DNA of 22,650 nucleotides from a virus, in the IMG/VR virus record IMGVR_UViG_3300029951_000119, positions 1 through 22,650 of that record; one strand, given 5' to 3'. This document shows, piece by piece, positions 4,329 to 6,051 of the stretch. The position numbers were made by a program, and so were the translations under genes. The notes below the pieces were generated by a model that worked only from the letters and a program-made list of their open reading frames with translations, searched no databases and was not told where the DNA came from. How positions within the stretch are numbered: position 1 is the stretch's first letter; each line of letters opens with the position of its first letter.

Positions 4329-4913
4329 TTAAGCGCCCTTGATATTGATCTGAAGGACTCCGATAGCCCCTGTCTGGACCGAAATGGCACCAGCCTTACC
4401 GCTTTTCACTAAGCGCTCCACTTCGCTCTGGACCGCACTAACAGGCAAGCCAATCCAGGTTCTGGCGTATTGTCCTGGGGCGATCTCGACGCGGTTGGCT
4501 TCCTTGCGCCAATCATCATTGCGCTGGCCACGGGGACCCTCCAATTGCCAGTAATGTTCCTCGACCGTGTCGACATGCAGATCCCCCTCAATCCACCTCG
4601 TTTTCGGACCTACGATGATGGTATCGTCGCTTGCGTTACGCACCGTAATGCGAAGTTTTCGTTTGAATGAAATCTCAGCGCGGTCGTCAGTTACAAACTG
4701 GGTCTTCTCGATCACAAGCGGGTTCTTCCTTCGCCGCTGGCGGCTCCATTGGACCGCGAGGCTAATGGCCATTCCGACCGCGACTCCTAATAGGGCCGGG
4801 ACCATCCAAGGTAGAGCGTTCGCCACTTTTGAGATGGCTGAAAGAGCGAGAGAAGCCGCTGCGGTCAACCACTGTAAGACTTGCCCCCTATTAGAAAACC
4901 ATTTGTTCGGCAC
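4329..4913 (-). CDS. Membrane-anchored protein of unknown function (cargo, next to TIR gene)
   Basis: I start at a GTG at 4913 because GGGGG lies 6 bases upstream; the frame is open to an ATG at 5033, which would add 40 very basic residues. The 194-residue product has two hydrophobic segments close together (about 11-32 and 35-56), then a strongly basic stretch (WSRQRRRKN). This suggests a membrane hairpin with a cytoplasmic C-terminal domain. That domain looks beta-rich, with alternating hydrophobic strands (KLRITVRNASDDTIIVGPK, ARTWIGLPV, AISVQTGAIGVLQINIKG). I do not recognise a named family. It lies downstream of the TIR gene on the same strand, so it may be a partner or membrane-located component of that system, but a 205-base gap containing a hairpin separates them. 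Confidence 0.65.
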   Translation of the reverse strand: MPNKWFSNRGQVLQWLTAAASLALSAISKVANALPWMVPALLGVAVGMAISLAVQWSRQRRRKNPLVIEKTQFVTDDRAEISFKRKLRITVRNASDDTIIVGPKTRWIEGDLHVDTVEEHYWQLEGPRGQRNDDWRKEANRVEIAPGQYARTWIGLPVSAVQSEVERLVKSGKAGAISVQTGAIGVLQINIKGA

Positions 4914-4937
4914 TTCCCGCCCCCAAGTTCTATCGCC

Positions 4938-4958
4938 AAAAAGTCGTCCGCCGACTTT
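4938..4958 (-). terminator. Terminator-like hairpin between TIR gene and membrane-protein gene
   Basis: Read on the reverse strand, AAAGTCG (4958-4952), a five-base loop and CGACTTT (4946-4940) form a perfect 7-bp stem. The run of five T (4942-4938) that completes the 3' arm continues two bases beyond it. It lies about 25 bases upstream of the membrane-protein start, so it could end or attenuate the TIR transcript. The stem is short and moderately AT-rich. Confidence 0.4.
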
Positions 4959-5118
4959 ATCAGCTCTCGTCCTTCTCGTGAGCAGAGCTAGACGTACCCT
5001 TATGCCGAATATTCTCCGGGCCATGCAACGCACTCGTGGAATCAGCTCAGAAGATTTTTAAACGACCTCGAGGATTCCAGCCGGCCAACGAAGAAAACTT
5101 GATAGGCTGATCCAACGG

Positions 5119-6051
5119 CTAAAACGGAATGTCATCGTCGTCAAATGGTTCGGGTGTCTGGTTGGTCTCGACGGGATTGAGTTTGTGCTTCGACAGAAGG
5201 TCGTTTAGTTGCTTAAGCGGATCTCCCGACGAAAGAGCCACCGAGGACGTGGCGCTATCTCGTAGTTTTTCTAAGTATGCGATTGGCATGCTTTCGACGG
5301 AAGCGATGTACTTTAGCTTTTCTAGCGCTTCGTCTGCGGAAGCTGCTCGGATTGTTGTGTCAATGAGACAGGACAACATGCGTGAGCGGGTCTTTGGCGA
5401 CGAAACCAGGACTCGAAAGATGCTCTCGGCAACGCTCGTTACCGTCTTACCCTCAGCCTGAAGGCCTTGGTACTTGGAAATGAACCCATATGGGTTCAGT
5501 CCTCGGATGATAGGAATGACCAGCACACCGCGACCAACGGCAACTCCAACTTCTTGATCTGTCCAATTGCTCTCTTTGAATCCGGGCATGAGGATTGCAG
5601 CCAAGGCATCCATGGAGTAGAGCCCTGCCTCGATCTCGTCCAACCACTCTTTGGTAGGCTCAATGTCAACGTGTGCAACGAACGCTGAGACTCCGTAGTT
5701 GCGTAACGCCGCCTGCAGCAGGCCGGTCGTCTTTTTGAAGCTAGACAGGTGGCTGAGGAACAGCTTGAAATGGAAAGGCTCCCAAAACGTGGCCTCTAGT
5801 GTCGTACTTGAATCCGCGACGGTGTAGTTATGGGAGAGCTCAAGTTCATCGGCTATCCGCACAACGAGCGGATCTTTTTCATCAGAGAGTAGTTCCTTGG
5901 TGTAGACCCACTTACTGTTCACCCCCGAGGTTGGCTTCTTAGTGTCAACGCCGTGGGCTCGTAAGTAGGTGTCAATTTCGCCGTACGACATTCGGCTTTG
6001 CAGCTCTCTGCCGATGCGATCGATGAGCTCGAGTTTGTCCAGAACCTTCAT
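5119..6051 (-). CDS. TIR-domain protein with an SSB-like C-terminal tail (putative defence effector)
   Basis: With a start at ATG 6051 the product is 310 residues; the frame is open to 6207, but that extension runs into the start of the next phage gene. Residues 1-75 form a helical N-terminal region (LIDRIGRELQSRMSYGEIDT, then SKWVYTKELL) like N-terminal domains I associate with abortive-infection proteins. A TIR domain spans about 94-200: KLFLSHLSSF, FVAHVDIEPTKEW, MDALAAILMPGF, and SNWTDQEVG, with E167 in the position of the catalytic Glu of NAD-cleaving TIRs. A helical linker follows. The last residues (303-310) are FDDDDIPF; the final six are identical to the C-terminus of E. coli SSB, which binds replication and repair proteins. 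The gene opposes the phage operon and is more AT-rich, typical of prophage-borne defence cargo. NADase activity and SSB-partner binding are inferences. Confidence 0.85.
   Translation of the reverse strand: MKVLDKLELIDRIGRELQSRMSYGEIDTYLRAHGVDTKKPTSGVNSKWVYTKELLSDEKDPLVVRIADELELSHNYTVADSSTTLEATFWEPFHFKLFLSHLSSFKKTTGLLQAALRNYGVSAFVAHVDIEPTKEWLDEIEAGLYSMDALAAILMPGFKESNWTDQEVGVAVGRGVLVIPIIRGLNPYGFISKYQGLQAEGKTVTSVAESIFRVLVSSPKTRSRMLSCLIDTTIRAASADEALEKLKYIASVESMPIAYLEKLRDSATSSVALSSGDPLKQLNDLLSKHKLNPVETNQTPEPFDDDDIPF

Follow-up and report, generated by a model that had tools for sequence, protein, structure and literature searches.

The TIR gene and its product

The window analysed here is the whole 22,650-base stretch of the virus record IMGVR_UViG_3300029951_000119, which carries lambda-type head genes (terminase gpA, portal), and between these two genes lies an opposite-strand gene for a TIR-domain protein that ends like the C-terminal tip (SSB-Ct) of bacterial single-stranded DNA-binding protein (SSB). 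The tail is conserved from phylum to phylum, is kept when the N-terminal domain is exchanged and repeats the host SSB at the third-last residue (position -3), so that the sequence evidence supports reading it as a genuine SSB-Ct mimic under selection. The gene and the parts of its product are:

5119..6051, minus strand: TIR effector gene, 310 aa, ATG start and TAG stop (translation and relatives)
5842..6051, minus strand: N-terminal helical domain, type A, residues ~1-70 (AlphaFold2 secondary structure, alignment)
5392..5772, minus strand: TIR domain, residues ~94-220 (Pfam TIR_2, Foldseek, invariant columns)
5188..5388, minus strand: C-terminal helical part, residues ~222-288 (AlphaFold2 model, pLDDT ~90 or more)
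5146..5187, minus strand: short linker, residues 289-302, unconserved and partly disordered (entropy, AlphaFold2 pLDDT)
5119..5145, minus strand: SSB-type C-terminal tail FDDDDIPF and stop, residues 303-310 (translation, homologue conservation, host match)

An earlier note on this DNA had placed a TIR protein at 5119-6051 and, reading the reverse strand at 5119-5151, had seen it end in FDDDDIPF directly before the stop, and both parts of that reading were borne out. Translation gives MKVLDKLEL...TPEPFDDDDIPF followed by the stop, the start position of the ATG at 6051 is shared by homologues, and the DNA for DDDDIPF-stop occurs a single time, at 5119-5142 on the minus strand. Residues 98-184 match Pfam TIR_2 (E=3.3e-10, 40.9 bits vs a cut-off of 28), and a Foldseek search with the AlphaFold2 model returned as best matches the TIR domains of SARM1, BtpA/TcpB, BtTir and AbTir, with a probability of 1.0 to SARM1, BtpA and AbTir, as expected of a TIR fold; the SpbK structure 9phb was also among the matches of the TIR part. 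The residues W136, E139 and E141 are invariant across 21 aligned sequences, which is consistent with a TIR NADase catalytic glutamate but is no proof of one; the protein is likely a NADase.

The AlphaFold2 model, built from an 18-sequence alignment, has a mean pLDDT of 82 and begins with four helices, for which no Pfam family match was found. Its last 13 residues (298-310) fall below a pLDDT of 50, and the tail is thus predicted to be exposed and disordered, as in SSB. The Pfam scan gave no match to the SSB OB-fold domain (PF00436), and the sequence search yielded no solved relative.

Conservation of the tail

Relatives were drawn from genome contigs, viral contigs, plasmids and whole genomes, and conservation was measured on 20 diverse family members aligned from the C-terminus. 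The entropy was 0 bits at -1 and -2 (invariant Pro-Phe), 0.61 bits at -4 and 0.75 bits at -5, both almost always acidic, and 1.46 bits at -3, the sole variable position of the tail, while the linker varies freely at -6 to -30 (2.3-3.4 bits); five tail positions are therefore constrained right after a freely varying linker. Acidic residues followed by a hydrophobic residue and Pro-Phe at the exact C-terminus, conserved among relatives, constitute the sequence signature of an SSB-Ct mimic. An SSB-type tail occurs in all intact relatives with the type-A N-terminal domain, down to 47% identity, and the only type-A relative without it (L096) is truncated near its end. Examples are EDDDIPF (Lysobacter), SDDDVPF (Oleiagrimonas), ESDDIPF (Klebsiella plasmids), SPDDLPF (Latescibacterota), YDDLPF, SDDLPF and LDDLPF (Bacteroidota) and EDDLPF (Balneolota); further type-A tails read FDDDIPF, WDDIPF or WEDIPF, NDEIPF and LDDDLPF. 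A tree of the TIR region (40 rows), whose deep branches are long and uncertain, requires five changes of tail, and the core clade retains the tail in 27 of 28 members. A check of conservation in homologues that had been set beforehand thus came out in favour of the tail.

Disabled copies keep a readable tail past the stop or frameshift (NDEEIPF in L030, YDDLPF in L066, YDNLPF in L067, LDDEIPF in L089), L017 being likewise among the TIR copies broken in this way, and this is the pattern expected of a defence gene that is often gained and lost. As a background, 57 of the 908 open reading frames (ORFs) of at least 100 aa in all loci examined at that point end in an SSB-like pattern, and the only ones among them that are neither TIR family members nor SSBs are a DUF3127 protein and an Abi_C protein.

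Four kinds of N-terminal domain are found among the relatives, with the tail mostly retained. The relative L016 (Cloacimonadota, 36% identity) carries an N-terminal AbiJ_NTD5 domain (Pfam E=2e-29) and ends in FDSDIPF, two clear type-B relatives (L081, L098) end in VDDLPF, and an actinobacterial relative on a Paenarthrobacter plasmid (L083) ends in ARSEPPF; the tail of L082 is weaker (SEAIPF). A survey of 200 Pseudomonadota genomes for AbiJ_NTD5 gave no match, the controls being equally silent.

Agreement with the host SSB

Host SSB genes were retrieved from the host genomes and their C-terminal ends were compared with the TIR tails. Pairing was manual and used genomes with an observed SSB ending in Pro-Phe (PF-tailed); where a genome has several SSBs the main tailed one was taken (G845 carries both I and L forms), and the pair for L083 uses SSBs from plasmids of Paenarthrobacter congeners instead of the same genome. 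Residue -3 of the TIR tail equals that of the PF-tailed SSB in 19 of 19 pairs (I/I, V/V, L/L, P/P). The agreement includes a V/V pair in Oleiagrimonas (DDDVPF in both proteins) beside I relatives and an L/L pair in a member of the Latescibacterota within a clade of I/V tails, and extends to Paenarthrobacter (SEPPF in the TIR protein, SEPPF or AEPPF in SSB), L089 (LDDEIPF in both) and L098 (VDDLPF in both). Left out of the comparison were G005, G008 and L002, for which no PF-tailed SSB was retrieved or the assembly was doubtful; in the L002 assembly, titled Synechococcus, one SSB ends in EEEVPF and a second in DDDDIPF, and the contig may be contaminant DNA.

Several observations weigh against reading the tail as a host-matched docking peptide. 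Shared ancestry explains part of the agreement at -3, and collapsing the pairs to ten clade-by-residue classes, which gives a permutation probability of 1.6e-4, removes ancestry incompletely. In two Flavobacterium genomes (G011 and G012, with L059 and L060) the TIR protein ends in YDDLPF and the main SSB in APDDYNV or APDDSSY, with no Pro-Phe; host matching is therefore not universal, and these cases either contradict it or point to another reader of the tail. The tail is absent from a number of TIR proteins, related or more distant (L018, L019, L020, L084, L085, L090, L097, L100), and is therefore dispensable for TIR function in general. Finally, a lone SSB-Ct peptide binds weakly, in the micromolar range; multiple copies or an additional contact would be required for docking.

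That acidic C-termini are common and that some relatives have no such tail could also suggest that the tail is an unremarkable acidic end or has a structural role, with no relation to SSB. Such a reading is highly improbable given the invariant Pro-Phe at the very end with free variation just upstream, the host matching, the retention of the tail when the N-terminal domain is swapped and its disorder in the model. A chance acidic tail was ruled out by the conservation, the background ORF count and the host matching.

Genomic setting and mobile surroundings

The G+C content around the TIR gene dips to 51-55%, as opposed to 62-67% in the flanking DNA, and the gene has the look of a moron (added gene). 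The low-GC insert ends with a further gene:

4329..5033, minus strand: small probable membrane protein (ORF, G+C content)

This protein had no Pfam match and is not beside other TIR relatives in the neighbour lists, which leaves its tie to the TIR gene uncertain. A sigma-70 scan found no promoter-like sites. Five other contigs of IMG/VR encode an identical protein (100%). A second low-GC, opposite-strand gene of the window, at 1306-2007, encodes a DUF4145 (HEPN-like) protein (Pfam E=4e-16) and is possibly another defence moron.

The family is rare, with a close relative in 7 of 400 sampled Flavobacteriaceae genomes, none found by DNA search in E. coli and none in annotated phages. The Klebsiella relatives sit on conjugative plasmids, the TIR gene of L079 adjoins a primase-helicase gene (Zn-ribbon, Toprim, D5) similar to satellite primases, and that of L080 is near an integrase gene. 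In Polaribacter (L006:900-10600) the TIR gene stands among head-to-tail genes with ~10 related repeats with CGTT cores between them, which looks like an integron cassette array. A tailed TIR gene with another N-terminal domain (L081:923-5675) has an SPP1-type portal gene upstream and is thus again near head genes. In Fodinibius (L013, L014) and on the viral contig L082 the TIR gene is inside a type I restriction operon, after hsdM and hsdS; HsdM and HsdS were confirmed in L013 and L082, HsdR is downstream in L014 and L082, and in L082 an FRG-domain gene separates hsdS from the TIR gene. No conserved operon partner was found among the neighbours, which vary by lineage.

A proposed mechanism and its rivals

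The terminal Phe carboxylate of the SSB tip enters pockets of RecO, PriA, RecQ, RecG, ExoI, chi, DnaG and others. We propose, at a probability of roughly 60%, that the window protein is a mobile, phage-carried abortive-infection TIR effector in which an SSB-tail mimic docks on SSB-tail readers and clustering is the switch. Its tail peptide would occupy the SSB-Ct pockets of SSB-tail readers, either host proteins at forks and gaps (RecO, PriA, RecG, RecJ, RecQ, DnaG) or phage proteins (Orf, and single-strand annealing proteins including Red-beta, Sak and Sak4), or both. Phage replication would gather these readers and bring the tethered TIR proteins together, the TIR domains would assemble, and the assembled domains would cut NAD or make a signal, upon which the infected cell stops. 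The parts of this scheme differ in strength: judged from the sequences, docking into SSB-Ct pockets is very probable, while the chances of activation through clustering during foreign replication appear about even. That the TIR protein defends against phages is what we infer. The reader may be either a host or a phage protein, and both predict host matching; among the recruitment, competition and sensing at forks that the earlier note had envisaged, sequence alone cannot decide.

Tail reading by phage proteins has precedents: Red-beta binds a nine-residue SSB tail peptide with a Kd of ~10 uM (PMC7496540), Sak4 requires the tail of its SSB (PMC5928155), and efficient annealing by Sak80-alpha depends on the SSB tail (PMC11846896). 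Clustering likewise has one in the TIR NADase SpbK, which is activated in this way on a multimeric phage portal (PMC12847820). These same precedents would also fit an integrated decoy, in which the tail baits phage proteins that target or exploit the host SSB (annealing proteins, Orf-type mediators, helicase loaders). Their ring-like or multimeric binding would cluster the TIR domains directly, and host repair proteins would be irrelevant. Host matching would be expected there if phage proteins have adapted to the host SSB tail, and the carriers (prophage, phages, plasmids, possible satellites) are rivals of other phages. The same matching would, however, follow from recruitment to host proteins, and the phage trigger is only hypothetical; we consider the bait unlikely, though the strongest of the rivals.

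The host-matched tail would also suit a guard that holds the TIR protein inactive on host SSB-interacting proteins until phage single-stranded DNA and SSB pull these away, releasing it and switching it on, and several abortive-infection (Abi) systems respond to the state of single-stranded DNA or SSB (PMC10732053). Yet SpbK requires assembly and not release (PMC12847820), and ordinary DNA damage would trigger such a guard too, which makes it a rather improbable alternative. Near-identity to the host SSB tip could further mean that SSB-Ct pockets are filled by the effector, possibly in a burst, so that SSB-dependent repair is blocked and the TIR activity is secondary. Abundant tetrameric SSB would outcompete a weak monovalent peptide, and the residues of the putative TIR active site do not vary; competition of this kind is very unlikely.

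Relation to known defence systems

Comparison with known named defence systems (Thoeris, retron-TIR, SpbK and the other PADLOC models) gave only weak matches at the level of the TIR domain, and none was accepted. For Thoeris ThsB the match to ThcB4 scored 22.5 bits vs a cut-off of 220 and that to the PADLOC ThsB model E=0.005, and no ThsA-like partner was recognised among the listed ORFs near the TIR gene. The match to Retron-TIR (RT-TIR) is confined to the TIR part (29.1 bits vs a cut-off of 600), and the reverse transcriptase of that class was not found. Membership in the AbiJ-NTD-TIR class was rejected as well, as the window protein has no AbiJ_NTD match in Pfam; its relative L016 has one. 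AbiJ-NTD-TIR architectures were described in 2013 in a HEPN/AbiJ survey (PMC3710099); they share with the window protein a single-gene Abi-type layout and a swappable N-terminal domain joined to TIR. The passages of the survey that were consulted make no mention of an SSB tail, and the N-terminal domain of the window protein matches no Pfam family.

SpbK of B. subtilis is a TIR defence protein of the same fold (9phb) and likely shares the clustering logic, but the PADLOC spbK match to the window protein is only E=0.026, the trigger of SpbK is a phage portal, and the abstract of PMC12847820 describes no SSB tail for it. With bacterial SSB-Ct the window protein has in common a disordered acidic tail, an I/V/L/P-Pro-Phe end with a free carboxylate and a residue -3 as in the host; it differs in having no OB fold and a linker of just ~15-25 aa, with the tail fused to TIR.

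PrrC-type effectors are anticodon nucleases embedded in type I restriction operons. The TIR relatives L013, L014 and L082 resemble them in their position within such operons, whereas they carry TIR instead of an anticodon nuclease and most TIR family members stand alone. Hna, AbpAB, Retron-Eco8 and Nhi are defences triggered by phage SSB (PMC13381803, PMC10732053) and are similarly wired to the SSB and replication machinery, but they respond to phage SSB, while the window protein itself bears an SSB tail. The earlier note had been aware of no TIR effector with such a tail, and a search of open-access papers agreed with it, finding none that describes a TIR effector with the tail or connects TIR proteins to SSB tails.

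Other proteins with SSB-type tails

Beside a tail-less TIR gene, at L019:3095-3898, an Abi_C (PF14355) protein ends in WNLNDIPF. Its plasmid relatives (L124-L127) end in WEDDEVPF, WEDDDVPF, WDESIPF and CEDIPF, and two alphaproteobacterial relatives have no SSB-like tail. For Abi_C at large, none of 17 readable surveyed loci had an SSB-like tail (L137 is interrupted), and the tail is therefore a trait of an Abi_C subfamily. A tentative generalisation is that abortive-infection effectors of two or more unrelated families could use SSB-tail mimicry, adapted to the host SSB, for docking or as an integrated decoy, and so sense phage annealing or replication proteins.

A scan of IMG/VR for proteins with DDDIPF or DDDLPF termini gave at least 240 matches, and of these 240, 77 are canonical SSBs. 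Among the matches listed, the other proteins with these ends look by eye mostly like other phage single-stranded DNA-binding or recombination proteins, and none of the 240 matched the TIR reference. FDDDIPF also ends a helicase-like phage protein (L240, 585 aa), and SSB-type tails are therefore not confined to the SSB family among phage proteins. A DUF3127 protein ending in SDDLPF is encoded at L005:8822-9205, ~3 kb from the TIR gene.

Implications

Few TIR defence proteins have a known means of recognising infection, and a short host-matched peptide, which should be legible to any binder of SSB tails, offers a concrete sensor or address for the whole family. The tail ties abortive infection to a replication and recombination hub that many phages must use, and its match to the host suggests a new route for an immune effector into the replication and repair machinery. 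The tailed Abi_C subfamily suggests that unknown defence genes could be searched for by such tails and, if these tails are confirmed, SSB-tail mimicry would have arisen in unrelated effectors.
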